Origin: a virus
Strand: one strand, 5' to 3'
Virus record (IMG/VR): IMGVR_UViG_3300020473_000011
Location: 217,558 to 281,557 of that record
Length of the DNA: 64,000 nt
The notes under the pieces were generated by a model. It worked only from the letters and a program-made list of their open reading frames with translations, did not search any database and was not told where the DNA came from. Numbering within the stretch: position 1 is the first letter of the stretch; every line of letters begins with the position of its first letter. The position numbers and the translations under genes are program-made. Of this stretch, positions 31,451 to 45,528 are shown one piece after another.

Positions 31451-31456
31451 TGGTGC

Positions 31457-31696
31457 CTACTCCTGCTCAAGACTGAGCGGGGATTCAAAGTCTATTCTGG
31501 CTGCACGTGAGTTAACCCACTTGATAGTCGTCAAACGTAGAGCTTCATGACCAATGTTACTCGCAGCCGCAAGTGCACTCATGAATAACAGTGATTGTTC
31601 GGCGGGTGTTAGCGTGCTTCGTCCATTCGTTGCGCGTGTGGCCATGCTTTTTACATAGCGCGCAAGCGTAGAGTCAGCTGCAAATGTTAATGCCAT
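31457..31696 (-). CDS. Unknown 79-residue protein
   Basis: This small helical protein (begins MALTFAADSTLARYVKSM; central TPAEQSLLFMSALAAASNIG) leads the virion-like operon. A GGGAGG ribosome site, TTGAGAC (31719-31725) and TTGTACAA (31755-31762) precede it, the full leader arrangement. No family recognised. Confidence 0.65.
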   Translation of the reverse strand: MALTFAADSTLARYVKSMATRATNGRSTLTPAEQSLLFMSALAAASNIGHEALRLTTIKWVNSRAARIDFESPLSLEQE

Positions 31697-31718
31697 TTAA
31701 TTGCCTCCCAGTCAGGCG

Positions 31719-31762
31719 GTCTCAACTCAGTATCAATGCTACAATTATAAACCATTGTACAA
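31719..31762 (-). promoter_or_regulatory. TTGTACAA / TATAAT / TTGAGAC promoter region
   Basis: On the minus strand TTGTACAATGGTT is followed by a perfect TATAAT. TTGAGAC lies further downstream (31719-31725), before the gene at 31457-31696. No good -35 hexamer is seen at 17 bp from the TATAAT. Confidence 0.6.
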
Positions 31763-31804
31763 GAGTTTCATACTACCCGAAAGTGAGGCTAATTGGCACC
31801 TAAT

Positions 31805-32014
31805 TTAACGTTGGGGGTCTTGTTTGTTTTGTCGCTTAAAGCGCTGCATTTTGTTCCACAGGCGATACGAGTCACCGTCATTCACCTTGGCCATTCGTAT
31901 ACAGGCGTCATTCATCGCATCAAGGTCTTTGCTTTCCAGCGCTTTGTTAAAGTCGCGCTCTATGTAGCGTTTTAAGTCGCTCCCTTTCATAACAACGACG
32001 TCGGTTTGTCTCAT
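31805..32014 (-). CDS. Unknown 69-residue basic protein
   Basis: The short helical protein begins MRQTDVVVMKGSDLKRYIE and ends in a basic tail (RFKRQNKQDPQR). AGGTAGAAC precedes the ATG. It lies 15 nt downstream of the SLOG gene and probably belongs to the same mRNA (32652 to 31805). No domain recognised. Confidence 0.6.
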   Translation of the reverse strand: MRQTDVVVMKGSDLKRYIERDFNKALESKDLDAMNDACIRMAKVNDGDSYRLWNKMQRFKRQNKQDPQR

Positions 32015-32029
32015 AGTTCTACCTATTTT

Positions 32030-32476
32030 TTAGCGTGCAGCTATACGACCACCCGTATAGGCGACGTATACTTCTAAGTTGTGGTGCTTGGCACGTGCAA
32101 TCATGTCCCGCGTTCCAGCGGAGTGTCCGTCCCAAAGGGCGATTAAGCCACCTCGTGACTGCGCCGCATAGCAAGCCATGTCTTCGTTTCGTAAGAAGCC
32201 CGCTTCTAAGTTCGGGTCTTCTGAGTCACCCCAGTCAGGCTCAAAGTCTTCCACATGGATGCCGTGTGCTTTGGCATATTTAACACCGAGTGCATCGCCC
32301 CCTAAAGCCGTTCCGTTTACGACCTCCGTGATGTCCCAGCCGAACTTGGTAACAGCCTTAGCGACTGCGCGTTCAAGCAGCGGGTAGTCCCGCATCGTTA
32401 GATGACGTGAGCCTGCTATTATCAAACGAGTAGTCTTTATCTTTCGTGTAGGGGGAGTCTTAGTGAAAAGCGCCAT
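32030..32476 (-). CDS. DUF2493/SLOG-family (YspA-like) protein
   Basis: This 148-residue Rossmann-like protein contains TRLIIAGSRHLTMRDYPLLE, then EVVNGTALGGDALGVKYAK and later GGLIALWDGHSAGTRDMI. These are the GSR, GG-D-x-x-a and WDG-S-GT-M-i motifs of the DUF2493/YAcAr branch of the SLOG superfamily, which binds nucleotides or nucleotide-derived ligands. Phages often carry such proteins; their exact job is not established. Its start codon overlaps the stop of the small upstream gene (TAATG). Confidence 0.85.
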   Translation of the reverse strand: MALFTKTPPTRKIKTTRLIIAGSRHLTMRDYPLLERAVAKAVTKFGWDITEVVNGTALGGDALGVKYAKAHGIHVEDFEPDWGDSEDPNLEAGFLRNEDMACYAAQSRGGLIALWDGHSAGTRDMIARAKHHNLEVYVAYTGGRIAAR

Positions 32477-32652
32477 TAGCCCTCAGTGAGAACTCTAATG
32501 TTCTGGATAAGTTCACGGTCTTGGTTCTTACGGGCAGTGTGCTGCATACAGACACTGACAGGCTCATAGCGAAACATGTAGCAGTGGCCTTCTTCTTGGC
32601 CAGCGTGCATCTGCTTGTGATCACAGGTTTCGCAACGGTTAGGGTTGCTCAT
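32476..32652 (-). CDS. 58-residue cysteine-rich miniprotein
   Basis: A short frame from ATG 32652 (MSNPNRCETCDHKQMHAGQE) to the TAA shared with the next start codon. Cys-x-x-Cys followed by spaced His and Cys residues suggests a small zinc-binding protein. TTGTACAA at 32673-32680 lies 21 nt upstream and ACCGAGACCC is in the leader. Confidence 0.65.
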   Translation of the reverse strand: MSNPNRCETCDHKQMHAGQEEGHCYMFRYEPVSVCMQHTARKNQDRELIQNIRVLTEG

Positions 32653-32672
32653 AACGGGTCTCGGTTATCTTG

Positions 32673-32680
32673 TTGTACAA
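32673..32680 (-). promoter_or_regulatory. TTGTACAA site upstream of the SLOG operon
   Basis: On the minus strand TTGTACAACAAGATAACCGAGACC leads into the ATG at 32652. The intergenic space is only about 90 bp. Confidence 0.5.
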
Positions 32681-32742
32681 TGTTCGCCGAGCATGGTACC
32701 AGCATAGCCTGTACGAAACAAGCTATGCTGTAGGGGGATTCG

Positions 32743-33240
32743 TTAGCGGCGGACTACACCTGAGTCCCGTAATCTTTCTGTTAGGGCGATAAGGTGTTTG
32801 CACATACCTGCCTGATGCGCTTTGTTACGCTCGGGCATGTCTTTTGTCTTGCGTTCGTAAGGCGGGAACTTCTTGCCAAATAAAGCATCGCTCTTATTAT
32901 TGAACCACGCCCATGTATGCGTGTAGTCAGTGCATCCACACCGTACACGAACGTCATGGCCTGATGCTTTCGGCTTTTCTACGTATACGGTTCGGCCACC
33001 TACGTTAAAGGGGAGTGTGTACCGCCCCTGCTTCTTGTCGGATGATTCGATGCCTTGGAAGACTACCACAGCACTGTAGCGCGCATTAGCCTTAGACTCA
33101 CTATCAATCGTGGCGCTGACCATGAGCGTCTTGGTACCCGCAGCATAGCGCGAGTTCTCTATATTAACGTAGCCGTTAGCTGCCTCAGCACGGTCTCTTA
33201 CGGCCTCTGTGCCGCGAACTAATTGAACAAGTGTCGTCAT
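32743..33240 (-). CDS. SWIM-type zinc-finger protein
   Basis: The product has 165 residues from ATG 33240 (MTTLVQLVRGTEAVRDRAE), preceded by GAGACTGAGATA. A longer frame to 33300 runs through a terminator hairpin and is unlikely. The C-terminal part has VRCGCTDY, a spacer, then GMCKHLIAL, the CxC...CxH pattern of SWIM zinc fingers, which bind DNA or protein. The beta-rich middle reads VYVEKPKASGHDVRV. Function is unknown. Virion or DNA-binding roles are both possible. Confidence 0.72.
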   Translation of the reverse strand: MTTLVQLVRGTEAVRDRAEAANGYVNIENSRYAAGTKTLMVSATIDSESKANARYSAVVVFQGIESSDKKQGRYTLPFNVGGRTVYVEKPKASGHDVRVRCGCTDYTHTWAWFNNKSDALFGKKFPPYERKTKDMPERNKAHQAGMCKHLIALTERLRDSGVVRR

Positions 33241-33265
33241 GTCTATCTCAGTCTCGTTTATAAAT

Positions 33266-33291
33266 AAAAAGTGAGGGCACGTAACCCTCAC
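33266..33291 (-). terminator. Intrinsic terminator after 33300-33998
   Basis: GTGAGGG (33271-33277), a 7-nt loop and CCCTCAC (33285-33291) form a perfect 7-bp stem. On the minus strand TTTTTATT follows. Confidence 0.88.
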
Positions 33292-33299
33292 AGTAAACA

Positions 33300-33998
33300 T
33301 TACTCGCCAAGCGCTAGGTACCAGCTTGATTGCTCGGTCAAACGTTCTTTGGCTTCGTTAACTTTCGTTTCCCCTTCACTAACTAAATCACTTGCGTCCA
33401 TGGTGACGGGCAGGTCGTTTAGTGTGAATGCTCGGCGTGATCGGCCAAGAGACATTAGGAAAAATCCGACAAGGATGTCGAAGAAGATGTCGTCCGAGTA
33501 GTCGATACTTGGGATCTCTGCTGAGGTCACAAGATTGCTCGCGTCTTTCTCTACATCTTCAAGCGTATGGTGTCTGTGCATGGTGATGTCATACATACCG
33601 CTTGAACCCGCCACTGATAGCGTTGGTTTGTTGTACTCCCATGGGATCTGACGCGGTCGACCAGTCGCATAGTATGGGTCAGAAAGACCACCTGCATTAC
33701 CATAGATAAACGCGGCTGCGCCTTGGCCTGAGCCACCGTTACTACTTGAATCGCTGACAGGGATTACTCGGGAAATCCAAGCTGGTGTTGAACCACCACT
33801 AATATCTGTCAGGTCAATTGAAGCGTCTACAGCTAACGTCTGTCGGTCAGTTAGCGGTCGGTATTTGCTGTAAATAGCAAGAGCACGCTTTACAATCAAA
33901 TGGAAACGGTGTCGATTGATCTGCGTGGTTTCTAGTTCACCGACTATGAACTCACCGCTTTCGGTCATTACGTAGTCGATTAATTCGTCTAATGTCAT
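33300..33998 (-). CDS. Unknown 232-residue protein, possible head-tail/neck component
   Basis: It begins MTLDELIDYVMTESGEF, has a Ser/Gly-rich low-complexity loop (SDSSSNGGSGQGAA) and ends with helices (VNEAKERLTEQSSW). The arrangement (N-terminal helical, central beta with flexible loop, C-terminal helix; ~230 residues) recalls phage neck or tail-completion proteins, but I see no diagnostic motif. It has a CGGAGCC ribosome site and is flanked by terminators on both sides (34016-34037 and 33266-33291), so it is a separate unit. Confidence 0.65.
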   Translation of the reverse strand: MTLDELIDYVMTESGEFIVGELETTQINRHRFHLIVKRALAIYSKYRPLTDRQTLAVDASIDLTDISGGSTPAWISRVIPVSDSSSNGGSGQGAAAFIYGNAGGLSDPYYATGRPRQIPWEYNKPTLSVAGSSGMYDITMHRHHTLEDVEKDASNLVTSAEIPSIDYSDDIFFDILVGFFLMSLGRSRRAFTLNDLPVTMDASDLVSEGETKVNEAKERLTEQSSWYLALGE

Positions 33999-34015
33999 CT
34001 GTTAGGCTCCGTACG

Positions 34016-34037
34016 AAAAGGGACGCTCTAGCGCCCC
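34016..34037 (-). terminator. Terminator after 34071-34634
   Basis: GGGACGCT (34020-34027) pairs with AGCGCCCC (34030-34037) with one mismatch. On the minus strand TTTTCG follows. Confidence 0.75.
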
Positions 34038-34070
34038 TTATCAACATATTTACCCGAAGCTCTTTAGGGG

Positions 34071-34634
34071 TTACTTGCTGCTTGTTTTACGACCTAGCGT
34101 AGAACGGCGGCGTTTGTTACCTGTTTGAGACTTCGGTGTTGAAGTTGCTTTAGTCTCAGTCTCAGGTTTAGTCGCAGTCTTCTTAGCTGGTGCGCTTTTC
34201 GCAGGTGCGGCCTTCGCAGGTGCACTCTTAGCAGCTTCCTTTGGAGCGTCTTCCGCTACCGTGGCAGCTTCCGCCTTCTTAGCTGCGGCTGCGTCTTGCA
34301 CTGCTTTATTTTTAGCTGCTGCGTCTTTCACGGCTTGAGCTTTTGCAGCTGCGTCAGCGTTTGCTTTCTCTTCGCGTGCTTTTGCCTTAGCTGCACCCGA
34401 GTTTGCTTTAGGGTCTGAAACAACAGTGTTTTCGCTGTGCTTACGTACAACTGAACCATGCTGAGCCACAAAGCCTTTGGTTGATAGCCCAAATGCGCGG
34501 ATGAATGGTACAAGCTCATTATGTAGCTTGTCGCTGATCTCTTCTGAGGTTTCACCCTTCGCTAAAGTAATTGTGCGATTTTGGCTTTTTACAGGGATTG
34601 TTACCTGTGCATTTGTATTGTTAATTAGGTACAT
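34071..34634 (-). CDS. Protein with histone-H1-like Ala/Lys-rich tail
   Basis: The 187-residue protein has a folded N-terminal ~60 residues (MYLINNTNAQVTIPVKSQNR, with KGETSEEISDKLHNEL) and then a long low-complexity tail of Ala, Lys, Pro and Glu (AAAKAQAVKDAAAKNKAVQ, APAKAAPAKSAPAKK) ending in RRRSTLGRKTSSK. Such a tail could bind nucleic acid or act as a flexible tether. It may be a virion DNA-condensing protein or a fibre/hub linker. It has a double TTGTACAA site and a TTGAGAC leader. Confidence 0.7.
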   Translation of the reverse strand: MYLINNTNAQVTIPVKSQNRTITLAKGETSEEISDKLHNELVPFIRAFGLSTKGFVAQHGSVVRKHSENTVVSDPKANSGAAKAKAREEKANADAAAKAQAVKDAAAKNKAVQDAAAAKKAEAATVAEDAPKEAAKSAPAKAAPAKSAPAKKTATKPETETKATSTPKSQTGNKRRRSTLGRKTSSK

Positions 34635-34647
34635 ACTTTCTCATCTC

Positions 34648-34730
34648 GTCTCAATTAAAATTGTACTACCCACAGCGGGTAGTACGCACCATTGTACAAC
34701 ACTTTTTTGCGGCGTGATAGTGTTGTACAA
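34648..34730 (-). promoter_or_regulatory. TTGTACAA pair (31 bp apart), GCACCATTG and TTGAGAC
   Basis: TTGTACAA lies at 34692-34699 and 34723-34730. GCACCATTG (34686-34694) overlaps the first copy. TTGAGAC (34648-34654) lies 14 nt before the ATG at 34634. GTAGTACAAT, a -10-like TACAAT, precedes TTGAGAC. Confidence 0.65.
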
Positions 34731-34744
34731 AATCTAGCAACGGC

Positions 34745-36367
34745 TTAGTTTTTGGCTAAGCCCTTGTCATACAGGCGTGCCGAACGGAACTGCACTGCAA
34801 GGTCATCCAGCGCTCGCCCTAACGCTAAACTTAGATTCATTAACAGTTCTTGCATCTGGTCTCGTTGAGGCTCTTCAAGCGCTGCTAGAAGCTTACGCGC
34901 CTTAATGTCATCGACAGCGTTAGCCAGCGCTAGTACAACTTTGCTGAAACAATCTATAAAGCCTTTACCACCTTCTTTCGCTAGCGCTGCCATTAGGTTG
35001 TCTAACGCATCGTCAAAATCAATATCCGCCAGAATGTCTCTTGTTTTAGATGGCACTGAGCGTGACACGACACCTGCTGGTGGAGCATCCCAAAGTCCCA
35101 TATCACCTAAAGGGTCTTTTGTGGAGCTAAGTAAAATACCTTCAATGTCGCGTGATGCCTTTGCCATCTTACCCGCAAGTCCGCGTAGCAGCTTAGAGCT
35201 TACGTTCTCTTTGAAGTTGTGGTCGTCACTGTTAATAAGCTGGTCGGATGCGTAATCCAATAGACCAAAGTAGGTTAGCAGTGCGCTTCCCCAGATCATT
35301 CCACTTTCATTAGTAAGCAACCAATTTACGGCAGCATCAACATCACCCTGTGGTGTGTCCATACCAATAGCCCCGTTCGCAGACTCGGTCACCTTAATTA
35401 GGTCAGCTATACTTACACCATCTTGGTCTTTAATTAGGGTTGCCCAGTTCATAAGCGAATCTAAGACCGAGCCTTCCTTACTTGACTCAAATTTTAGCGT
35501 GAGGTCTTGGCTCGCTGGTTTTTCAAGGTTAGATTCTTTCGCGCTATAGGCTGCACTAAAACTCATTTCGAAGTCGAGGCTTGAAGCCTCTGGGATGGTG
35601 ATTGACTCACCGCTTATATTTGGATGCAATACGCCGCCAAGTGCGACGGGTTCTTCAAACGTTACATTCGCAGATAGGTCTGTAGCTTCTAACGATTCGG
35701 CCACGGTACCCTCTGTGGTATCTATAGGCGTCTGTGTTACTTCGATTGTGTTGTCAATGGTTGGCTTTGCTACGACTACTTCGGGGACACTCTTAGTTAG
35801 AGCACGCAGAACAGAGGTGGCCGTCACAACCTCATCAAAGTAGAGACGTAACGCCTTATCTACATCACTCGTCAAAGCATCGTCTATGGCAGACTGCACA
35901 CTGGCTGCCCATAGCGTCAGTAAATCTAGAAGTTTATTCAGGTAGCTACGACCTTTTACTGATTGTTGGAAAGCACTGTGTAGGCTCGCAGCTGCTACAC
36001 TGCTTGGGTGTAGCGTTTCGTCTTCTTTAAGGTCGAGTAAGCTAATACCCGACATGCTTAGTGATGTTGAAAGCTTGTCTTGCGCCTGTGACAAAGCGCG
36101 GTGTAGTGCAATGAAGCCATCTTGGTTTGCTGCATCAACAGGGTAGTCTCGGCGTCTTAGTACATAAGCAGCGGCGGTTGTCATTAGCTGTGCGATAGCC
36201 ATAACACGCAGGACGTTACCCTGATAGTAGGCATGTGTGCCAATCGTACGCATAAGCGATGGGTCTTTATGGAAAGTCATGTCTAGCAGTGGCGCTTGGA
36301 TAAAACCCCCGCCTAATTGCTTAGTCAGTCCCTCAAACAAGGTACCGACGTGGTCTGGTGTGCGCAT
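34745..36367 (-). CDS. Unknown 540-residue protein, possible virion component
   Basis: It starts at ATG 36367 (MRTPDHVGTLFEGLTKQLGG) after ACGGAG; an in-frame TTG upstream is not needed. The N- and C-terminal thirds are helical (LALANAVDDIKARKLLAAL; MQELLMNLSLALGRALDDL). The middle third is Thr/Glu/Ser-rich and probably disordered or beta (PTIDNTIEVTQTPIDTTEGT). No known domain. It is a single-gene unit with TTGTACAA at 36416 and TTGAGAC at 36385, beside other probable virion genes. Confidence 0.7.
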   Translation of the reverse strand: MRTPDHVGTLFEGLTKQLGGGFIQAPLLDMTFHKDPSLMRTIGTHAYYQGNVLRVMAIAQLMTTAAAYVLRRRDYPVDAANQDGFIALHRALSQAQDKLSTSLSMSGISLLDLKEDETLHPSSVAAASLHSAFQQSVKGRSYLNKLLDLLTLWAASVQSAIDDALTSDVDKALRLYFDEVVTATSVLRALTKSVPEVVVAKPTIDNTIEVTQTPIDTTEGTVAESLEATDLSANVTFEEPVALGGVLHPNISGESITIPEASSLDFEMSFSAAYSAKESNLEKPASQDLTLKFESSKEGSVLDSLMNWATLIKDQDGVSIADLIKVTESANGAIGMDTPQGDVDAAVNWLLTNESGMIWGSALLTYFGLLDYASDQLINSDDHNFKENVSSKLLRGLAGKMAKASRDIEGILLSSTKDPLGDMGLWDAPPAGVVSRSVPSKTRDILADIDFDDALDNLMAALAKEGGKGFIDCFSKVVLALANAVDDIKARKLLAALEEPQRDQMQELLMNLSLALGRALDDLAVQFRSARLYDKGLAKN

Positions 36368-36384
36368 ACTGGCTCCGTATCTCT

Positions 36385-36423
36385 GTCTCAATTAAATGTG
36401 ATTATTCGATAATCATTGTACAA
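36385..36423 (-). promoter_or_regulatory. TATAAT-TTGTACAA-TTGAGAC leader
   Basis: On the minus strand GGCTATAAT, ATCC, TTGTACAA (36416-36423) and later TTGAGAC (36385-36391) precede the ATG at 36367. Here TTGTACAA lies downstream of the -10 box, over the expected transcription start, as an operator would. Confidence 0.6.
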
Positions 36424-36487
36424 GGATATTATAGCCATAATCACTATTACTTTTCAGCAAAACAATCTAATTAATTTAGCTAGCGAC

Positions 36488-36531
36488 GCACCATTGGAAG
36501 GTGCTATTATGCAGCCGAGTCCAACGGACTC
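36488..36531 (+). promoter_or_regulatory. GCACCATTG element, TATTAT and leader hairpin before the kinase
   Basis: GCACCATTG (36488-36496) begins a small hairpin (GCACC...GGTGC) followed by TATTAT. Further on GAGTCC (36517-36522), loop AAC and GGACTC (36526-36531) form a perfect leader hairpin about 45 nt before the start at 36577. Confidence 0.45.
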
Positions 36532-36576
36532 ATTAACTGATACTTATGAAAAATTGAATAACGAGGGAAGAACCCT

Positions 36577-37506
36577 ATGAACCATATTGCAGGTGGTATG
36601 GCCGAGAAGATGACAGACACGTTATTGACTGGTCTAACCAAGCATGTACGAATTGGACTATCAGGCGCTCAGCGCACAGGTAAGTCAACGTTGGCCGAGC
36701 ACTACAGTAATCTGACTGGATTACCTTTTGTCGTATCGTCAGTCTCATCCATTATGGCTGAAATTGGCTTTGACTCGACGGCCTCGTACGATAAAGACTT
36801 TAAAACGCGCCTTAAAGCTCAGTTCCACTTACTAAAACGCCTTGATGAGGAATGGAGTAAACACGAGGGTGGTTTTATCACCGACCGCACACCGATGTGC
36901 ATGGCCATGTACACACTAGCCGATATTGTGGGTACGACAGAACTTGATGATGACGATGTTTCAGCGTTATATGACTACATTGACCAGTGCAAGCTGCTTA
37001 CTTTGAAGCACTTTAATGTGCTCGTTAATGTAGCCTACAATCCGCGCATTGAACTTATTAATAAGGCTGGGTCAGCTCCCGCTAAAAAACACCACATCTT
37101 ACATTTGGAGACGTTGCTTAAAAGCCTGATCTTTGAAATCAAGGTACCTACAGGGTCAGACCCTAGAACATTACATGACCTCTGTGGTGAAGACGACGAG
37201 CGCTCACTGTTACGTCGCTTTGACAAACCGAAGAGTGCGCCTACTGCTACCTGCTTGGGTCGTATCGAGAATCTAGTACGCCTGAGCTTAGCTGACATTC
37301 AACAATCAAAGCTAATCGTCGCGGATTTACCTTTTGAAGCTGGTAGCGTTGAAGAGCGCGTACAGTGGTTACACAGCATCGTCATTAGAGAGGCGTTTGA
37401 TTGGGTTTCTTGTGGTCTAGCAGAACTTGGTGATAGTCCGCTCATTAACGATGAGACAGCCAAGTTGTATAAAACGATTGATATTGAGCACATAAAGTAC
37501 GCTTAA
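36577..37506 (+). CDS. P-loop NTPase, NadR/nucleoside-kinase-like
   Basis: This 309-residue protein has a Walker A motif GAQRTGKST (residues 30-38) and TDRTPMCMAMYTLAD (about 101-115), resembling the DR(T/S) lid or substrate motif of NadR/AAA_28-type kinases. It probably phosphorylates a nucleoside, nucleotide or related small molecule. The start follows GAGGGAAG with good spacing. It is followed by a hairpin (37529-37548) and stands as a single plus-strand gene. The substrate cannot be told from sequence. Confidence 0.72.
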   Translation: MNHIAGGMAEKMTDTLLTGLTKHVRIGLSGAQRTGKSTLAEHYSNLTGLPFVVSSVSSIMAEIGFDSTASYDKDFKTRLKAQFHLLKRLDEEWSKHEGGFITDRTPMCMAMYTLADIVGTTELDDDDVSALYDYIDQCKLLTLKHFNVLVNVAYNPRIELINKAGSAPAKKHHILHLETLLKSLIFEIKVPTGSDPRTLHDLCGEDDERSLLRRFDKPKSAPTATCLGRIENLVRLSLADIQQSKLIVADLPFEAGSVEERVQWLHSIVIREAFDWVSCGLAELGDSPLINDETAKLYKTIDIEHIKYA

Positions 37507-37791
37507 AGTACTACCCCTCTAAATAGCGCTTTTGATGTAAGTCAAAAGTACCATTTAAAAGTATTAGGATGCTCATTCGTTGGGCATCTTCATAAAACCG
37601 CAATTAAACTGCATAATAACCTGCAAATATTATTTTAAACTGATTACTTATTCATTGTATACTACTGTAGCACAGGGGTTTATAAGACTTTTGTTCGTCA
37701 TTTTTCTTGATAAGATTATTTACTTAGACTAAAGTGATCTTACTTATTTCATATCGCGTAAACTCTCTTATAGCGTGTAGTGGAGTAGCCT
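37507..37791 (+). other. AT-rich 285-bp intergenic region
   Basis: No gene fits here. It begins with a hairpin CTTTTGA (37529-37535)/TCAAAAG (37542-37548) after the kinase gene, without a T-run. The rest is AT-rich and probably holds the promoter of the gene at 37792, but I find no convincing -35/-10 pair. TTGTACAA and TTGAGAC are absent. Confidence 0.5.
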
Positions 37792-38634
37792 ATGAATAAT
37801 GAGAGAAGAACCCTACCTGCTGTTGGTGATACGCACTTTAAAGCTGACCCCAATAACAAAAACCTAGTACTTGTCACGGCTCGTGGCCGCTTTGACGTCA
37901 GTTCCGTTGAGTCATTGCGACAGAACCTTACGCGTAGCCCGCTGTTCCTTAATCCTGAACGGCGAGTGCTTGTCGAGATACTAGAAAATTGTGAAGGCAC
38001 AAATGCCTACTATGAAGCGTTAAGCTGTCAGCTGCATCGCATGCAGTCTATGGGTTTCTCTGCTGAAAAGGTTGCCTTTGCCATTGATCCAAACGTCGTA
38101 GGGCGCGACGAGGGTATCAAAAATTATCGGTTCATTTACACCGCTAATAAGTTTATGGTTGAGTTCTTCGAAAATGCTGACGACGCGAAAGCGTGGCTTT
38201 TAGGCAACTCTACTAAACCAAACAGATCAACGGAGCGCCTACCTTCTACATTTAGGACTGATAGTGTGTACGAACACCTTGTAAGGATTGACTGTCACTC
38301 GCCATTTGACGCTGAATTTTGTGCGAGTTCTATTGCGACACAGGCGTCGAATATACAATTTTTAAACCCGCACCGCGTAGAGCTTATTAGCTTTATTGGC
38401 GACTGCTCAACAGCTACAGACGACTTTTATGAAATGTTTGGAGAACATATCGCACGTGAGGTCAAGATGGGCTTTGCACCAGTCAGCACGGCTATTATGA
38501 TCCCAAATGGGTCTGATGGACGCGAGTTGCTAGTGGAGCGACTAACAGCCGTATTCGCCAAACATGCTACGTACGACGTTAGATGCTTTTCTGATGAGAA
38601 AGATGCAGAAGCTTGGTTATTGCGTGATAGCTGA
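37792..38634 (+). CDS. Tandem SpoIIAA/STAS-like protein
   Basis: This 280-residue protein is made of two related halves (about 20-135 and 160-278). Each runs from a beta-strand opening (LVLVTARGRFD; LVRIDCHSPFD) through RVLVEILENCEG or RVELISFIGDCS, then a helix before a GF segment (MGFSAEKVAFAI; MGFAPVSTAIMI), and ends with F-N-A-DDAKAWLL or SDEKDAEAWLL. The terminal F(x)-A-AWL signature and STAS-like order match the SpoIIAA-like (PF11964 type) fold. Single-domain versions occur in bacteria with unclear, perhaps lipid-binding or regulatory roles. A duplicated phage copy is unusual. Confidence 0.7.
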   Translation: MNNERRTLPAVGDTHFKADPNNKNLVLVTARGRFDVSSVESLRQNLTRSPLFLNPERRVLVEILENCEGTNAYYEALSCQLHRMQSMGFSAEKVAFAIDPNVVGRDEGIKNYRFIYTANKFMVEFFENADDAKAWLLGNSTKPNRSTERLPSTFRTDSVYEHLVRIDCHSPFDAEFCASSIATQASNIQFLNPHRVELISFIGDCSTATDDFYEMFGEHIAREVKMGFAPVSTAIMIPNGSDGRELLVERLTAVFAKHATYDVRCFSDEKDAEAWLLRDS

Positions 38635-38646
38635 GCCTGACTAAGA

Positions 38647-38671
38647 AGTACCTAGGCGATAGCTAGGTACT
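38647..38671. terminator. Hairpin between convergent genes
   Basis: AGTACCTAG (38647-38655) and CTAGGTACT (38663-38671) form a 9-bp perfect stem with a 7-nt loop. The T-run is weak on both strands. Confidence 0.6.
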
Positions 38672-38691
38672 CATACGCAAACCTTTATTCG

Positions 38692-39336
38692 TTACGCGCC
38701 ATCATCAACCGTTTCTAACTGTAGGCGGCCTAGTGTCGCAAGCTTATCAGCAATATCATTACCAATGGCCGTGAAGCGATCCCAGCTACGTGCAGGGAAG
38801 TCGTTCTTATTACGGTGACCTCGACAGTGATGCCACGTAGGGCGCAAGCCCTTTGATGCCATCAAGAATTGTTGCCAGTACGGTACATTCTTAACGTCTT
38901 CAAAGTTTCGCGCTTTCCAGCCTGCCATCCACTCCGTAGCGCCTTTAACTACATACTGTGAATCAGAGATTATATGTGCACGTGTCTGGTTAGTACGTAT
39001 ATCCTCGATGTCGTTAATTTCAAGTAGTGATGAAATAACCGCTTGTAGCTCCATCTTGTTATTGGTTGTTAAAGGGTGCCCTCCTGACATATAGGTCAGC
39101 ATCGGTGGCTCTCCCTCTTCAATAAGCAATAAGGCGACACCCCAACCACCTTTACCCTCAGACTGTGTTTTCTTTGTTGCTTTACAGCGGCTATAAACCA
39201 CGCCGCCGTCACAGAAAAGGTAAAGCGCTGGTACTGAATAGGCACGAGGAAGTGCATAGGCCAGCTCGTCGGCCAATGCTTGGTTATTCTTTAAAAACGC
39301 CTTGAGTGAACTAAGCGTAGGCTTTTTACCTGCCAT
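38692..39336 (-). CDS. rnhA: Ribonuclease HI
   Basis: RNase HI cleaves RNA in RNA:DNA hybrids, removing replication primers. The DDEDD-type catalytic residues are visible: Asp43 in YLFCDGG, Glu in NNKMELQAV, Asp in ISDSQYVVKG, then the HHCRGH loop and Asp in GNDIADKLA. At 214 residues it is longer than E. coli RNase HI (155), with a ~38-residue N-terminal helical extension and an insertion near TKKTQSEGKGGWG. It starts 2 nt after the stop of the gene at 39339-40217 and is the last gene of that operon. Confidence 0.92.
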   Translation of the reverse strand: MAGKKPTLSSLKAFLKNNQALADELAYALPRAYSVPALYLFCDGGVVYSRCKATKKTQSEGKGGWGVALLLIEEGEPPMLTYMSGGHPLTTNNKMELQAVISSLLEINDIEDIRTNQTRAHIISDSQYVVKGATEWMAGWKARNFEDVKNVPYWQQFLMASKGLRPTWHHCRGHRNKNDFPARSWDRFTAIGNDIADKLATLGRLQLETVDDGA

Positions 39337-39338
39337 GC

Positions 39339-40217
39339 TTACTTCCTCTTACGGGCTTTACTAGCTGCTTTTTTATTTGCGCGTTGTGCTGGCGTACGCT
39401 TCTTTCGGGTTAACCCTGACATTTGGCGTGCATTTTTGGCGGCTTGCATTGAACGGCGGTATTCACCCACGCGTTGGCTTAGCTCGGTCGGTGCCACATC
39501 TTGGAAAGGCTCTGATAAGTGGTACTTTGTCTTGTACTCGCCATCTGAGATAACACCTACGCCCTTTGAAAGTTCAGTGTCATTTTCGGCTGTCGCGACA
39601 AACATAGAGTAGTACTTAAACGCTACAACAAAGCCACCGTCAATGCCATCTAGTGCTGCGTGGCAGTACTCTGCGTCAATACGTTCGTCGTAAGGTACTG
39701 GGTCTGTTCCACTGAAATCAATCCATGAACGCAAGCCGTCGGCATGCCTGATGTACGCATAGAATGAAAAACGACTTGTGCTCTGCGATAGGTCATCCAG
39801 TGCACCCGTCACGATGTCTTCATCGGGCAACATCGCTTCACCCGCGTGATTAAGGCGCTGAAATGCTAGGTACACGCGCTGGTCTTTAGTGTTGACACTG
39901 ATACCAACGCAAAACTGGTCAAAGAAAGCACTCGCACGCGCTAGGTGATGTAAATGCTTAGCTTGATCATCGGATGCCTGCCCAGTCATTAATAGATGTG
40001 ACATGCCCATGTGCCATGATTCAATTTCGCTGTTTAAGACGTCGTGAACCTTACTTAGGTGCATCGCCGTAACTAACTGCGCATTTGTGACAACGGGTTG
40101 TTGTGGTTGACTTGTTGGGATGATCTTGTTCATCGGTGCTTTTTTCACAAAGCGGCCGATAGGTTTACTTGCCATTGCACGCTGTACAACAGCTACCTGT
40201 GCGGAAGAAAGTGCCAT
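39339..40217 (-). CDS. Unknown 292-residue protein with basic tail
   Basis: It begins MALSSAQVAVVQRAMASKP. The middle carries histidine-rich helices (HLSKVHDVLNSEIESWHMGM; KHLHHLARASAFF), and the C-terminus is a strongly basic stretch (LTRKKRTPAQRANKKAASKA) that may bind nucleic acid. TTGAGAC lies 22 nt upstream, after a TACAAT hexamer. It is co-transcribed with RNase HI. No domain recognised. Confidence 0.68.
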   Translation of the reverse strand: MALSSAQVAVVQRAMASKPIGRFVKKAPMNKIIPTSQPQQPVVTNAQLVTAMHLSKVHDVLNSEIESWHMGMSHLLMTGQASDDQAKHLHHLARASAFFDQFCVGISVNTKDQRVYLAFQRLNHAGEAMLPDEDIVTGALDDLSQSTSRFSFYAYIRHADGLRSWIDFSGTDPVPYDERIDAEYCHAALDGIDGGFVVAFKYYSMFVATAENDTELSKGVGVISDGEYKTKYHLSEPFQDVAPTELSQRVGEYRRSMQAAKNARQMSGLTRKKRTPAQRANKKAASKARKRK

Positions 40218-40238
40218 AATGCTCTCTTAAATTTATCA

Positions 40239-40252
40239 GTCTCAATTATTGT
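40239..40252 (-). promoter_or_regulatory. TACAAT-TTGAGAC leader of the RNase HI operon
   Basis: On the minus strand TACAAT, AA, TTGAGAC (40239-40245), then AAGAGAGC and ATG at 40217. No TTGTACAA is present. The layout suggests TTGAGAC marks the mRNA 5' end. Confidence 0.5.
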
Positions 40253-40288
40253 AATTAAATCCCATTAGGATTGCAGGCACTATATTGC

Positions 40289-40313
40289 AAAAAGGGCTGC
40301 AACGCAACCCTTT
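40289..40313 (-). terminator. Intrinsic terminator after 40319-40642
   Basis: AAAGGGCTGC (40291-40300) and GCAACCCTTT (40304-40313) form a 10-bp stem with one G-U pair and a 3-nt loop. On the minus strand the stem runs into TTTTTGC. Confidence 0.85.
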
Positions 40314-40318
40314 AGACT

Positions 40319-40642
40319 CTAAATCTCAGTGATGATCTTAGGCGTGTTATCTGCTTCGGCCTTTGCTACGCCTTCTAAAACGCCTTGTACCATAGCGTTG
40401 AAGTCGTACTCTTCACCATCGGCAGGCCGCCTTAATTTCACCATACTATCACGTAACCTACCGTGATTAATCATCATGAGTATGGCATGACGGGCAACTT
40501 CGATATAAGTGTCGTCATTAGGGACGAAGACAATACAGCTTAGCCCTTGCTTTACGTAGTCTGTAGGGTAAGGCAGCTTGTCGCAGAAGATGACGTCACC
40601 TACCCGCTCAGCCTTTGGTGCACTTGGTACGTTTATCGTCAT
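40319..40642 (-). CDS. Unknown 107-residue protein
   Basis: This small protein begins MTINVPSAPKAERVGDVIFC and has an alternating beta/alpha pattern. It is transcribed directly after the gene at 40648-41028 (5-nt gap) and precedes a terminator. No domain recognised. Confidence 0.65.
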   Translation of the reverse strand: MTINVPSAPKAERVGDVIFCDKLPYPTDYVKQGLSCIVFVPNDDTYIEVARHAILMMINHGRLRDSMVKLRRPADGEEYDFNAMVQGVLEGVAKAEADNTPKIITEI

Positions 40643-40647
40643 AAAGC

Positions 40648-41028
40648 TTACCCTATTACACTGTCTAGCGCGTCGACTAATGAATCCACAAAGATGTCAT
40701 TTACTTCGGCTTTTGTTTTAACGTTAACCCCACGGATTGTAAGCAGCTTGATGTCATATAGGTCGCGTCCATTTAGTGTGATTTGAACCATACCACCCAC
40801 CTTGACCTTAGTACCACGTACGCGGAACTGAATACCGCTATCAATCGCGATAAAGTCACGAGCTGCCCAGCTTCCGAGCGCCCACTTATCAAGGGTTCTT
40901 AGCTGCTTTAGGATGGTCTCAGCAATGGCCTTATTACGGCTACTGTCCAGTTCATTCAAGGCTGACTCTCTGATAGAAAACAGGGAGCCGTCCAGCGCGT
41001 GCAATGCACGACTTACGGCGTTGTTCAT
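40648..41028 (-). CDS. Unknown 126-residue protein with start codon inside a TTGTACAATG box
   Basis: The likely start ATG at 41028 is part of TTGTACAATG, with TTGAGAC just upstream (41037-41043) as the only ribosome-site-like element. The product begins MNNAVSRALHALDGSL, again close to the xxxxALxALD N-terminal pattern of other genes here. The rest is a beta-rich domain (GIQFRVRGTKVKVGGMVQI). Function unknown. Placement of the operator over the start codon suggests tight control. Confidence 0.65.
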   Translation of the reverse strand: MNNAVSRALHALDGSLFSIRESALNELDSSRNKAIAETILKQLRTLDKWALGSWAARDFIAIDSGIQFRVRGTKVKVGGMVQITLNGRDLYDIKLLTIRGVNVKTKAEVNDIFVDSLVDALDSVIG

Positions 41029-41069
41029 TGTACAATGTCTCAATCGTTACTGAAAAATTCATTGTACAA
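41028..41069. promoter_or_regulatory. Divergent control region with two TTGTACAA sites
   Basis: A 62-bp gap separates divergent starts at 41028 (minus) and 41091 (plus). It contains TTGTACAA at 41028-41035 and 41062-41069 (34 bp apart) and TTGAGAC for the minus gene at 41037-41043. Confidence 0.7.
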
Positions 41070-41090
41070 CATATTGAGGGGAATTTAACT

Positions 41091-41699
41091 ATGTCTAGTG
41101 GGGAAACCACCGTATACCACGAAATGGCCAAGTTACTCGGCGACGAGCTTGCCGCAGACCCGACACTCGTTGCGAGTGTTACGCTGAGCGCCGAAAAGCT
41201 AGGTGATACGGCGACGATTGAGCGCCTGCGACTTCTCAGTGACCTACGTGAACCACTGGGAGCCACTACACAGGCTTATGCTGTTGGTCTCTTGATGCAG
41301 CTACCTAAGTGTGATGGAAACTGGCGAGAGACCCTTGAGGAACGCGAACTCAGTACGCTAATAAAAGACCTTGAGTACGTGAAACCTGCTGTCGTTGAAG
41401 AAAAGTCATTTCGACCCGCGAAAGACCTGTGGAAAGAAGAAGTTGACCGACTCGCGCTCGCGCCTGACTATGTTAAGCTAATCTACATGGCCAGCCTTGT
41501 AACGCGTATCTTAAAGCGTGACTGGCATAACTTCTTGCAACAGCAACAGCTCATAGACCGTGCGAAGCTGGCGGCTGTCGTACTGGGTGAATACTCCGAC
41601 GAGATCGCGCCATGGGTGAGGTTGTTAGACTCTGCCAGTAAGGGGAGTTATAAGGGGAAGGTGCCTAAACAGGGGGCGCTCTCGTATAGCCTCAGTTAG
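41091..41699 (+). CDS. Unknown 202-residue helical protein
   Basis: It starts at ATG 41091 after TTGAGGGG; upstream in-frame Met codons lie in the divergent gene's control region. The sequence is rich in Leu, Glu and Lys helices (VTLSAEKLGDTATIERLRL; YVKLIYMASLVTRILKRDW). No known motif. It is a single-gene unit ending at a strong terminator. Confidence 0.68.
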   Translation: MSSGETTVYHEMAKLLGDELAADPTLVASVTLSAEKLGDTATIERLRLLSDLREPLGATTQAYAVGLLMQLPKCDGNWRETLEERELSTLIKDLEYVKPAVVEEKSFRPAKDLWKEEVDRLALAPDYVKLIYMASLVTRILKRDWHNFLQQQQLIDRAKLAAVVLGEYSDEIAPWVRLLDSASKGSYKGKVPKQGALSYSLS

Positions 41700-41710
41700 C
41701 TTCTATCAAT

Positions 41711-41739
41711 AAAAAAGCCGAGTGTTATCTCGGCTTTTT
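41711..41739. terminator. Bidirectional intrinsic terminator
   Basis: GCCGAG (41717-41722), loop TGTTAT, CTCGGC (41729-41734), with an A-run before and TTTTT after. It lies between convergent genes. Confidence 0.9.
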
Positions 41740-41755
41740 CTTATAAATAAATTGC

Positions 41756-43084
41756 TTACGCTGAGCGTTGGTTGAAATCGACAAAGAATCTTTCGAACGC
41801 TGCATGACCTACATACGTTAAGCGTGTCTTGCCCGTACTCACGCCATTATCGTCTAAGTCATCCGATACGTAGAAGACACCCTCCGCGAACTTAATGAAG
41901 GATGGTACGTTATAGCCTCGAATATTTGATGGTGACGTCACCATGTAATACACGCGCTTTTGGTCATCCGTCGTTAGATCAATCGTGATATACAGACCTT
42001 TACCGCGCTCCTGTAAAGCGGCTGCTTCATAGAGTGCCGTGCGCAGTTTGAGACGTAGTGCATCACACTCGGACTCTAGGCTTTTGACATTATCAAGAGC
42101 TGCCTGCTTTAACAGGTTGGAGTAAACCGTACCGATGTCTTGAATGTCGCCATCAGACATTTGCTCTAGGATCTCTTCGCGCTCCGCAGGTGTTAGTTGA
42201 GCAACTTTGGCTGCGGCATCTTCTAAGATTTGCTGGTCAATACCGCCGCCTTTCAGGATCACCTGATCAACGAAGTTGTGTAACCACGGGATTTGAACGC
42301 CTGTCGCAAGCTTGGTTGGTGCTGAAACACCTACGGGGTTGCCATCACCTGTTTTATACAGGTAGCGTACTTGAATGTCATAGTAAACATAACGGTCAAA
42401 AATACCGCCTGCAACGTCGGCTACTTCAAAGTAGCTCGGTGTCGTAGGGTCGTACACATCGCGGTCAACAATAACCTCACGAGCTGACGCCTGTGTAAGA
42501 AGCTTATTCACCACCTCAAAGCGTGGCACTAGCTTATCTGAGACACCCGCCATATCATGCGTAAGGATATTGTACTTGAGCATGTAATGGTCTGTCGGCT
42601 CAACGATTGTCATGTTTGCTAGGTCGGGGGCTGGCACAGCTGAACCGCCTGTCGTGAACGCACCCTCAGTGAAACCAAGTTGCTCGATACCATCTACAAA
42701 CAGTTTTACACCGTAGTAATAGTCCTTACCTGATAGAAGACCATCTACGTACAACGTTTTGTAGTTGTACTTGTCTCCTTCGTCAAACGTGGCCTTATGT
42801 ACGAGCACATTACCCGCAAACTTGTACGGTTGAAGTGTCTTAGCATAGGTTTCATCAAACGAGGTGCCCGCTGCATCCAGCTCATCTTTTGGCGCTACAT
42901 AGATTGCCAAGTATGTTTCAGGTAGTAGGGCTTGGTCTTTTAGGACTTCTCGCAGGGCTTGCTGGCCTTCAAAGCCGATCAGCGTAACACCATGGCGCAT
43001 TAGACCATCGTGCTGAGGCTGTGGGTCAGCCACGGTGGCAACAGGGTTAGATGCGTTTAAGAACGCATTTAAGTCAAAAATCAT
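41756..43084 (-). CDS. FN3-like virion-type protein, paralogue 1
   Basis: This 442-residue protein pairs with the gene at 43150-44463. Both have a beta-rich first half ending in FN3-like strands (GLLSGKDYYYGVKLFVDGIE here) and then PWLHNFVDQVILKGGGIDQQ followed by a helical region (EEILEQMSDGDIQDIGTVYS; LRLKLRTALYEAAAL), and a beta C-terminus. The sister gene has PWLADFVNQTVIQGRQVED at the same place. These are probably structural (tail or decoration) proteins, by architecture only. Confidence 0.72.
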   Translation of the reverse strand: MIFDLNAFLNASNPVATVADPQPQHDGLMRHGVTLIGFEGQQALREVLKDQALLPETYLAIYVAPKDELDAAGTSFDETYAKTLQPYKFAGNVLVHKATFDEGDKYNYKTLYVDGLLSGKDYYYGVKLFVDGIEQLGFTEGAFTTGGSAVPAPDLANMTIVEPTDHYMLKYNILTHDMAGVSDKLVPRFEVVNKLLTQASAREVIVDRDVYDPTTPSYFEVADVAGGIFDRYVYYDIQVRYLYKTGDGNPVGVSAPTKLATGVQIPWLHNFVDQVILKGGGIDQQILEDAAAKVAQLTPAEREEILEQMSDGDIQDIGTVYSNLLKQAALDNVKSLESECDALRLKLRTALYEAAALQERGKGLYITIDLTTDDQKRVYYMVTSPSNIRGYNVPSFIKFAEGVFYVSDDLDDNGVSTGKTRLTYVGHAAFERFFVDFNQRSA

Positions 43085-43149
43085 TATCCTGTCCTTATCA
43101 AAAAGGGCTGAGCACTATTACCCAGCCACTTAGCAGAATGAGCGTGCGA

Positions 43150-44463
43150 TTACGAGAATACGATTTCCGCACGGTCACGGTACACAGAACCACGCACAGT
43201 TACGTAGAACTTGTCATCCGCGATTTCACTACCTTCAACGACCGCGCCAAGGTGGAACGCTTTGTCTAACCACGAGTAGTAGCTAGTCGGAACGTCTTCG
43301 CGGTAGCCTTGTTTAGTTACAAACGTGAAAGCTTCTTTCAGCTCTGCGTCAGTTAAGTCCAGTAGCTCACCGTAGGTACTATCGATCTCGTTATACAACG
43401 CGATACGACGAAGCTGCTCACGTACTTGCGAGAACTTAATCGCCATTGTCTGGAACTCTTCAACGGCGACATCACGGGTCATGTCGTACATCAGTGTGGC
43501 TACTGATGAGAACGAGCCTGAGTTAAGCGCTTTACGAAGCTCTTCACGAACATCTGCGTCGTCCAGCAAGTTTTGGGCGATGTCGCTTACAAGCGTATCT
43601 TCAACCTGTCGGCCTTGAATAACCGTTTGGTTTACGAAGTCTGCCAACCATGGAAGCATGAACGGTTGAGCGGTTGCCACTACGAAGTCACTTGCTGCGT
43701 CAGGCTTACCAGCTTCTACCTTACGTGCACGGATGCGAATATCGTAGTTCACATACTTACGCATGCCTTCTGTCGTCGGAGAGAACGTGAAAACAGGCTT
43801 ATTCTCTGCGTCAAAGGTAAAGTTTGATGTGATAATAACGGATTCATCGTACGTGTACTCAGGCATTGCTACCTTCGTTGCATCCACAACTTCTAAGACA
43901 AAAGCACTCGTTGAGCTGGTGTCCGCAGTGTCGATAGTAACTTTCATCGAGCTGCCAACTTCTTCCATCTTTAGTGTCACTGTTGGTGGTGCTTCTGTTG
44001 TACCTTCTAACGTGATCGTGTTTGAGGTAGCTAACCAATCAGGTTGAGCTACCTTGTTAAGCACTAGCTCAAAAGCGGCCTTGTATTGATAGCCTGCTGG
44101 TAAGCCCGCTACACTGAACGAGTTATACAAGGCACTGCCGTCTTGTGATTGGATTAAGTCAGTAAGTGGTACGCGGCGATAGACTGCGTTGTCGCTATTG
44201 GTTGCTGTCGTTTTATCGAGGGCACCTACGCCCACCTCTAATGCAGGTACTAGGTACACGCTTAAATACGAGTTGTGAAGGTCTTCTTTAAGCTTCAAGC
44301 CTTCGGTGGCCGCGTACTTGCGGACAGCTTGTAAAAGGAAGTCGCCTGTTGTCGTTGCATTCTCTAGCGTAAACGTAAGGGTGTGCATACCGTGAGCGTT
44401 GACTGACGATGTTGTTGCGTTTACGAAAGTTTCCGCGAAAATTGGGGTCATGGAAAATGCCAT
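43150..44463 (-). CDS. FN3-like virion-type protein, paralogue 2
   Basis: This 437-residue paralogue of the downstream gene has a beta-rich N-terminal half (MHTLTFTLENATTTGDFLLQ; SVAGLPAGYQYKAAFELVL), a second Ig/FN3-like stretch (PPTVTLKMEEVGSSMKVTI), PWLADFVNQTVIQGRQVED, and a helical segment (MAIKFSQVREQLRRIALYN). It starts after TAGGAG. Its leader of about 150 nt contains a hairpin (GAGAAG...CTTCTC) and a TTGTACAA/TATAAT promoter at 44615-44627. Confidence 0.72.
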   Translation of the reverse strand: MAFSMTPIFAETFVNATTSSVNAHGMHTLTFTLENATTTGDFLLQAVRKYAATEGLKLKEDLHNSYLSVYLVPALEVGVGALDKTTATNSDNAVYRRVPLTDLIQSQDGSALYNSFSVAGLPAGYQYKAAFELVLNKVAQPDWLATSNTITLEGTTEAPPTVTLKMEEVGSSMKVTIDTADTSSTSAFVLEVVDATKVAMPEYTYDESVIITSNFTFDAENKPVFTFSPTTEGMRKYVNYDIRIRARKVEAGKPDAASDFVVATAQPFMLPWLADFVNQTVIQGRQVEDTLVSDIAQNLLDDADVREELRKALNSGSFSSVATLMYDMTRDVAVEEFQTMAIKFSQVREQLRRIALYNEIDSTYGELLDLTDAELKEAFTFVTKQGYREDVPTSYYSWLDKAFHLGAVVEGSEIADDKFYVTVRGSVYRDRAEIVFS

Positions 44464-44611
44464 GCTAATAACTCCTAGGATTAAGTTAGGTTATTCGCTG
44501 TCTCATAGCCTTTCACACGACTGGCCTATAGAACCTGCCGTGGGCATTCTCATGTCTCGTTTGAGAAGGTGGGACTTCTCGGGATCGTCTAAAGTTTAAT
44601 TCTACAACGAA

Positions 44612-44627
44612 TTATAACGTTGTACAA
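44612..44627 (-). promoter_or_regulatory. TTGTACAA adjacent to TATAAT
   Basis: On the minus strand TTGTACAA (44620-44627), CGT, then a perfect TATAAT. It drives the FN3-like gene pair. The site lies inside the -35/-10 spacer, where a bound protein would block polymerase. Confidence 0.65.
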
Positions 44628-44630
44628 AGC

Positions 44631-44876
44631 TTAGCTGTGGCTCAACGATGTTAAAGGCTGTACCACAGACACACGACCCGATGCACTACGCCTGCGAAGT
44701 ATCACAGGCATTGAAGGACGCTTAGGGGTGCCTTTCTTAGCAGTTAACGCTAAGGTTGCTGCCAGTGGCGTTGCCGTGGCAACACTCACAGGCATGAAGC
44801 TAACGAAGGTACCTATTAGGCCAAACAGTAAGCTTGTCACTGCGGCCTTAATGCGTGATATGCGATTAATCGTCAT
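44631..44876 (-). CDS. Small membrane protein with basic tail
   Basis: The 81-residue frame from ATG 44876 overlaps the end of the upstream gene by 11 bases, suggesting coupled translation. It has hydrophobic segments (AAVTSLLFGLIGTFVSFMPV, then ATPLAATLAL) and a basic C-terminus (KKGTPKRPSMPVILRRRSAS). No clear ribosome site. An opposing plus-strand frame exists, so the call is moderate. Function unknown. Confidence 0.5.
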   Translation of the reverse strand: MTINRISRIKAAVTSLLFGLIGTFVSFMPVSVATATPLAATLALTAKKGTPKRPSMPVILRRRSASGRVSVVQPLTSLSHS

Positions 44877-45039
44877 CAGCACAACCACATGTATTGTTGC
44901 AAACACACACGTCGCCACATGGCTCGACATCTGGCTTAGTGGCGGTTTTACGTTGACGACTAGCTAGTACCTTATCATCAATTACTTTGTCTAAGTCAGC
45001 TAGTACTGTTGCAATACGTGTCATCGCTGGTTGATTCAT
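44866..45039 (-). CDS. 57-residue cysteine-rich miniprotein with shared N-terminal motif
   Basis: From ATG 45039 (GAGGA upstream) it reads MNQPAMTRIATVLADLDKV and ends in a Cys cluster (CGDVCVCNNTCGCADDD). MTRIATVLADLDKVIDD closely resembles the start of the tandem-array protein at 2600 (MTRINNALEALDTVMTDD). The Cys tail looks metal-binding. Function unknown. Confidence 0.65.
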   Translation of the reverse strand: MNQPAMTRIATVLADLDKVIDDKVLASRQRKTATKPDVEPCGDVCVCNNTCGCADDD

Positions 45040-45061
45040 CGCGCAATCCTCGTTAAATTGG

Positions 45062-45075
45062 TTGTACAATGATTA
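45062..45075 (-). promoter_or_regulatory. TATAAT followed by TTGTACAA
   Basis: On the minus strand TATAAT, CA, TTGTACAA (45062-45069), then GAGGA and ATG at 45039. TTGTACAA covers the expected transcription start, an operator-like position. Confidence 0.6.
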
Positions 45076-45093
45076 TAACTTAATCACTTGCTA

Positions 45094-45408
45094 TTACGCT
45101 AGACCTTCGTACACTTCCAAATTAAATGTCACGTCGGTTACATGCTTAGCATCTTTCCAAGCTGACACTGTTGCCAACTGCGCCTTAACATCGTCGCTAG
45201 CTGCATCGGCTAACATTAGCAGCTCTTTATCGCCCATGATCAAGTCATGTGCGCGTCCTGTTACATCACGGTTAGTTAGACCTGAAATCAAGCTTAGTAC
45301 TTCATTTAGGTGTTCTTCTGGTGGGTAGGTTTTATCAATTACTGATGTAATAGCTGGTACACTAAACGGTACGATCACTTTATTCTCAGGGAATATTGAT
45401 GCTGTCAT
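45094..45408 (-). CDS. Unknown 104-residue protein
   Basis: This small protein begins MTASIFPENKVIVPFSVPA and is helical in the middle (EEHLNEVLSLISGLTNRDV). TTGAGAC lies 21 nt upstream (45429-45435). No domain recognised. Confidence 0.65.
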   Translation of the reverse strand: MTASIFPENKVIVPFSVPAITSVIDKTYPPEEHLNEVLSLISGLTNRDVTGRAHDLIMGDKELLMLADAASDDVKAQLATVSAWKDAKHVTDVTFNLEVYEGLA

Positions 45409-45428
45409 TATTATCTCACTTTTTCATT

Positions 45429-45435: not shown

Positions 45436-45450
45436 TTAAGGGCGCTGCCA

Positions 45451-45501: not shown

Positions 45502-45528
45502 AGACAGTCTAAAGATACGATTAATCGC

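Follow-up and report, generated by a model that had tools for sequence, protein, structure and literature searches.

A tandem pair of putative SpoIIAA/STAS-like domains in a protein of a large tailed phage

SpoIIAA-like proteins and the phage gene

The closest described systems are the SpoIIAA-like proteins of family PF11964 (DUF3478; 'STAS/SEC14 domain-containing protein'). Two bacterial structures of this type have been solved, 2q3l and 2ook from Shewanella, for which ligand and function are left open in the 2009 structure paper (PMC2954212). According to this paper, the family comprises 119 single-domain proteins and one fusion with UspA, and its elements follow the order b1-b2-a1-b3-a2-b4-a3-b5-a4. 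Both solved proteins are dimeric by size exclusion; in one of them, two chains lie side by side and share an extended intermolecular sheet, and the other shows weak crystal contacts only (PMC2954212). Two conserved clusters are named in the Shewanella proteins, with the core cluster consisting of A88, G91, F114, A120, W123, and L124 (PMC2954212). The switch/ligand cluster is treated herein as 13 positions, including H31, Y34, W71, D72, and D73.

The gene described in this article is located in a 64-kb window—meaning the whole stretch of DNA that was analyzed—of a virus record of 281,557 bases, which belongs to a large tailed phage. Its product shares with 2q3l and 2ook the strand/helix order, as modeled for residues 1-141 (half 1), and both halves carry equivalents of A88, F114, A120, W123, and L124, together with the terminal A..WL motif. 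In contrast to these proteins, it is phage-encoded, replaces H31, Y34, and W71, and contains two domains per chain, as opposed to the single domain described for the family in 2009 (PMC2954212). The STAS proteins of PF01740 (SpoIIAA, RsbS, SLC26 transporters) have the overall fold in common with half 1 (Z ~7 to 9.8); they differ in that the phage protein has no match to the sequence profile of this family and the phage record none to a partner kinase or phosphatase.

The open reading frame is considered a real gene because only frame 1 has a positive codon log-likelihood, with +0.121 per codon compared with -0.066 to -0.201 in the five other frames. This score is below that of two neighboring genes (0.223 and 0.276). 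The GC content of the gene is ordinary, 46.1% versus 47.4% for the window. The features of the locus are compiled in Table 1.

Table 1 Features of the phage locus and of the paralogous gene. Unprefixed positions are those of the 64-kb window.
Feature	Coordinates	Strand	Evidence or remarks
P-loop/nucleotide-kinase-like gene, upstream, co-directional (context)	36577..37506	+	PF13521 AAA_28, E 4.2e-4 (under cut-off); phrog_2107 thymidylate kinase, E 1.1e-6
AT-rich intergenic leader, 285 bp, 32.6% GC, no exact TTGTACAA	37507..37791	+	imperfect dyad 37520-37557
Ribosome-binding-site-like GGAG, 6 nt 5' of ATG	37782..37785	+	sequence
Gene of the protein with two putative tandem SpoIIAA/STAS-like domains, 280 aa, ATG start	37792..38634	+	ORF, Pfam, repeat alignment, codon statistics
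Domain 1, residues ~12-137, ending FFENADDAKAWLL	37825..38202	+	AlphaFold2 model, 2q3l match, PF11964 stretch 28-136
Domain 2, residues ~150-279, CFSDEKDAEAWLL near end	38239..38628	+	alignment to domain 1; PF11964 alone 12.7 bits
Single-domain paralogue, 174-aa frame	G000:37764-38288 = L016 1456-1980		~218 kb from the 280-aa gene

Internal repeat, family assignment, and predicted fold

Half 1 and residues 142-280 (half 2) align over their length with a local BLOSUM62 score of 119, whereas 2000 shuffles yield a mean of 26.7 and a maximum of 52, with none reaching the observed score. The identity between the halves amounts to 27% (MAFFT). Herein, MGFS of half 1 is aligned opposite MGFA of half 2, FLNP is repeated too, and AWLL closes both halves. 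The first-pass annotation had proposed duplicated STAS-like domains with a repeated MGF(S/A) segment and a terminal AWLL; both motifs are present in the two halves, and the duplication is confirmed as a tandem repeat by the shuffle control, with PF11964 found on both sides. The same annotation regarded two-domain versions as rare, which is plausible in view of the single-domain family of the 2009 paper (PMC2954212) and of 10 of 11 plasmid-encoded relatives with a single domain.

PF11964 is the only Pfam family assigned to the 280-aa protein, with an E value of 5.9e-5 and two stretches that together score 24.2 bits—0.8 bits short of the curated cut-off of 25 bits. Searched separately, half 1 reaches 15.3 bits (E 0.033) and half 2 the score given in Table 1 (E 0.21). 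The profile search suggested by the first-pass annotation, thus, detects the family in both halves and stays under the curated threshold. A six-frame PF11964 search of the phage record does not recover the gene and lists nothing at E 10. Neither PHROGs (best E 0.054 over 17 residues) nor NCBIfam (best E 0.035) contains a convincing match, and STAS PF01740 gives none up to E 10, in a search where the HMMER filters drop most weak matches.

Further evidence on the family comes from 11 plasmid proteins, 10 of which were taken from the best 40 of 64 matches and one from another search. Nine of the 11 are annotated as 'STAS/SEC14 domain-containing protein', one is a 'hypothetical protein', and one lies in an unannotated record; the 10 annotated genes have 118-130 codons and encode a single domain each. 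In a profile-profile comparison, the two phage halves alone match these proteins with E 3.3e-4 and a probability of 38%; with all three phage domains, i.e., including the paralogue described below, the values are E 8e-5, a probability of 61%, and a score of 32.2 over 110 columns. These HHalign probabilities are middling. As controls for the score, 300 column shuffles give at most 21.8 and the reversed profile 10.4. The Pfam check covered one of the 11 proteins, namely, WP_138510515.1 from Pseudoalteromonas sp. THAF3 (plasmid pTHAF3_a), a STAS/SEC14 domain-containing protein that lies over the PF11964 cut-off with 28.7 bits. It is a single-domain protein of 130 aa, as opposed to the two-domain phage protein, and the only one of the 11 that has the Phe for L29, the Val for Y34, and the Tyr for W71 of half 1. 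Its pairwise similarity to the two halves is weak, with 17/2000 and 1/2000 shuffles reaching the score.

When the phage record is searched with a profile of the two halves, G000:37809-38195 is recognized as a third domain (E 1.5e-11), which belongs to the single-domain paralogue. The paralogue scores 96 against half 1, to which it is 24% identical, and 77 against half 2; 0/2000 shuffles reach either score. At the 3' end, its frame runs into a tRNA-Cys gene that is encoded on the opposite strand and belongs to a cluster of six tRNA genes. Searched by itself, the paralogue has no PF11964 match, and a repeated search of the record with all three domains finds no further copy. Because the halves score higher against each other (119) than against the paralogue, the internal duplication may have taken place after the two genes parted; with three sequences, this order of events is only suggestive.

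The structure of the full 280-aa protein is predicted poorly by AlphaFold2 from the single sequence (pLDDT 51.8), and Foldseek finds no match for this low-confidence model at E 0.001. Half 1 by itself is modeled with a pLDDT of 76.5 and a pTM of 0.71, in a job that contained half 2 as the sole other alignment row and no bacterial sequence; half 2 is modeled only within the poor full-length model. The elements of the half 1 model follow each other as b-b-b-a-b-a-b-a-b-a. This agrees with the SpoIIAA-like order, with a short N-terminal strand (residues 8-11) and a short helix (residues 50-53) as extras. Foldseek gives no PDB match for half 1 at E 0.001; the best entry is SLC26A11 with 1.5e-3, and its residues 470-583, to which the model is aligned by VIA-align, are what we take to be the STAS region. 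When Foldseek's list is realigned with VIA-align, 2q3l comes first with a Z score of 10.6 (2.9 Å, 117 residues, model residues 12-137), followed by 4xs5 (9.8), SLC26A11 (9.6), RsbS (9.5), SpoIIAA (9.4), and 2ook (9.1). By the rule of this tool, a Z difference of <1 is a tie, which applies to 2q3l and the STAS protein 4xs5; other-family proteins enter the list from Z ~8, and the tool warns that Z <8 may merely reflect a common arrangement. Since 2q3l and 4xs5 are tied, the half 1 model supports the fold and not PF11964 over STAS. Structure prediction had been named by the first-pass annotation as the test that could overturn its reading; for half 1 with its alignment, it did not do so. A SpoIIAA/STAS-like fold of the phage protein is, hence, considered highly probable.

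In the viral structure library BFVD, half 1 is matched by A0A076FFQ2, A0A0N9QJ22, and A0A481YWR6 with E values of 1.5e-4, 4.5e-3, and 0.049. The first is an uncharacterized protein of an Aureococcus anophagefferens virus, and the last, weak one a marseillevirus DUF7793 protein. All three entries are small proteins, encoded by large algal viruses and by a marseillevirus, and STAS-like proteins may, as judged from models, occur in giant viruses too.

To compare the two conserved clusters, the phage domains were aligned with 2ook, 2q3l, and the plasmid proteins; this alignment is uncertain at ~11-18% identity to half 1. The core cluster is kept at 6/6 positions in half 1, 6/6 in half 2, and 5/6 in the paralogue. 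The G91 column comes after an insertion and is possibly an alignment accident; when this gap-dependent position is left out, the counts are 5/5, 5/5, and 4/5. In the switch cluster, 3/13 positions of half 1, 0/13 of half 2, and 3/13 of the paralogue are identical to 2q3l. None of the three domains retains H31, Y34, or W71, the lid Trp residues are absent, D73 is acidic in the paralogue only, and D72 is Glu in both halves. At the lid of half 1, the equivalents of L74, L78, V102, and F106 are L, L, I, and Y. The glycine equivalent to G27 is missing from half 2. Both halves have a Ser/Thr near the start of helix 2 (with the helix of half 1 taken from the model), and the paralogue has none. The accepted PF11964 member of THAF3 is itself identical to 2q3l at 4/13 switch positions. 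Because Phe29, Val34, and Tyr71 are common to half 1 and THAF3, the phage domains resemble a THAF3-type rather than a Shewanella-type member.

Genomic setting and searches for relatives

Together with the P-loop/kinase-like gene that precedes it, the gene makes up a + strand pair, which has minus-strand genes on both sides. A run of tail-sheath-like genes occupies 22597-31450 on the minus strand; the proteins tested herein, at 22.6-27.3 kb, match phrog_12249 in 3/3 cases. The ORFs 27298-28638, 28777-29673, and 30371-31450 of this run look alike by eye. A thymidylate synthase is also encoded in the window. On the minus strand at 6323-12966, three adjacent integrase-like ORFs are accompanied by a small ORF; only 10571-11842 matches PF00589, and the other two match nothing in Pfam or NCBIfam. 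This arrangement resembles the recombinase trios of mobile elements.

From the sequence, the first-pass annotation had described an AT-rich setting without TTGTACAA and had taken this to suggest that the gene was acquired and is controlled separately. The AT-rich character applies to the leader, where it is stronger than described, and not to the gene itself. The AT-richest 285-bp window of the whole 64 kb is found at 37465-37749 (30.2% GC), and 37424-37877 is the only stretch that contains a 285-bp window of <=34% GC. The inner part of the dyad in the leader has no second exact copy in the record, and the leader folds somewhat better than shuffled sequences (z -1.99, 3/100 as good). No RNA family reaches its gathering score within 36300-39400. 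As to a separate control of the gene, which may or may not exist, the number of promoter-like matches between 36300 and 38800 does not exceed the chance level (six found versus 4.2 expected).

TTGTACAA is a palindrome that is strongly enriched in the 281.6-kb record, with 149 copies versus 4 for a reversed control pattern. With a list of 60 ORFs as the reference, 25 of 29 sites in the window lie either outside gene bodies or at their edges, and the palindrome is possibly an operator, promoter, or processing signal. One copy is situated in a tRNA spacer (L025:10309). As described earlier from the sequence, no exact copy occurs near the gene, i.e., between 36416 and 41028, where one copy with 1 mismatch is located at 37465. 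This absence is unremarkable since two of the 28 gaps are larger than the resulting one of 4.6 kb, with a maximum of 16.3 kb. Upstream of the paralogue, the closest copy is ~3.0 kb away. A recent separate acquisition is not indicated because GC and third-position GC of the gene are like those of its neighbors, and the presence of the paralogue in the same record does not support the claim either.

No relatives of the protein outside the phage record were found with the searches used. In tblastn searches of viral contigs with six queries (the protein, the two-half alignment, half 1, THAF3, the paralogue, and the three-domain alignment) none was confirmed, and none was found in the viral contigs for the neighboring genes 39339-40217 and 36577-37506. 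Such scans can overlook distant relatives because they depend on a short peptide pattern common to query and target. Megablast of 28000-48000 of the window gives no match among named phages, and searches of the genome contigs found no relative of the 280-aa protein and none of the integrase. Among 50,697 phage records, the SpoIIAA-like family is not detected at E up to 1 by a non-exhaustive tblastn with two approximate probe sequences. Among the papers listed by our literature searches, no report of such a phage SpoIIAA/STAS-like protein was seen.

Several candidates were rejected. Two Enterococcus phage matches to the 280-aa protein (E 9) and, for the paralogue, portal-protein matches in four Pseudomonas phage records (E 0.2) are attributed to chance. 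Two Burkholderia plasmid matches (E 0.3 and 1) were discarded, the first being located inside a frame of 1389 aa, the product of which looks like a putative Hsp70-type protein, in a record with no PF11964 match. The PDB sequence matches, one each for the protein (E 0.79) and the two-half profile (E 1.4), are weak and concern unrelated molecules.

Possible roles of the domain pair

The explanation that we tentatively favor is a protein of duplicated, divergent SpoIIAA-like (STAS/SEC14-type) domains that forms a built-in pseudo-dimer and serves as a binding or adaptor module. It would have originated from the internal duplication of a domain that the phage also carries as a single-domain gene. 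The covalently fused pair would most likely act as a pseudo-dimer because the solved relatives were dimers, one of them side by side with a shared sheet. Such a module might hold a host or phage protein during infection, and its role would perhaps be neither that of a lipid carrier nor that of a phosphorylated anti-anti-sigma switch. The adaptor role is suggested by the conserved packing core together with the loss of most of the proposed ligand and conformational-switch residues. This loss, as read from the alignment, argues weakly against a simple carrier function; by itself it is compatible with the family function since the accepted member THAF3 also lacks most of these residues.

A SEC14/CRAL-TRIO-like carrier, in which each domain opens a hydrophobic cavity between helices 2 and 3 and docks on the membrane, would move or sense a lipid, a quinone, or a flavin-like molecule. 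The top-listed structural match 2q3l (tied with 4xs5) is an open, cavity-bearing member for which this role was proposed (PMC2954212), and half 1 has hydrophobic residues at some lid positions. However, the ligand-site Y34 and the lid Trp residues, W71 included, are gone from every phage domain, and the acidic pair D72/D73 persists only in the divided form noted above, which leaves the carrier an unlikely candidate.

We also have considerable doubt that the protein is a STAS partner-switch mimic, which would compete with an anti-sigma antagonist or a stressosome protein (SpoIIAA/RsbS type) of the host; that host sigma factors or a diguanylate-cyclase switch would be redirected as the outcome is doubtful to the same degree. 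The best structural neighbors include STAS anti-sigma antagonists and RsbS (Z ~8 to 9.8), and the Ser/Thr that each half has close to where helix 2 begins would fit, yet the paralogue lacks it, and PF01740 matches neither the protein nor, at E 10, anything else in the phage record, which is possibly incomplete. In the same possibly incomplete record, neither PF13581 (HATPase_c_2 kinase) nor PF07228 (SpoIIE-type phosphatase) is matched at E 1. As controls, the searches with PF13581, PF07228, and PF01740 match 12, 9, and 11 of 14 genomes, with 10, 5, and 10 over the cut-off. Since these three families have no match in the record, a phage-encoded phospho-switch is disfavored, and any partner of a STAS mimic would be the host's because a kinase or phosphatase encoded by the phage was not found. 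A host partner for the phage domain protein is possible.

A structural or virion-associated spacer, with the two domains as an inert folded linker of the phage particle or of an organelle, is very improbable. In its favor, the phage is tailed and has sheath genes in the same window; against it, the gene stands apart from those at 22.6-27.3 kb, in a + strand pair between minus-strand genes.

The favored module of duplicated SpoIIAA-like domains is a moderate addition to what is known, in that a familiar fold occurs at a new place and in a new arrangement. A phage with a single and a doubled copy provides a compact case for asking what the SpoIIAA-like fold binds. There is, in addition, a small chance that the doubled and the single gene represent a phage-specific STAS/SEC14 branch, the products of which pair either mutually or with a STAS or anti-sigma protein of the host. 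If this were true, the branch would be a phage-encoded partner-switch mimic that reprograms host regulation during infection.
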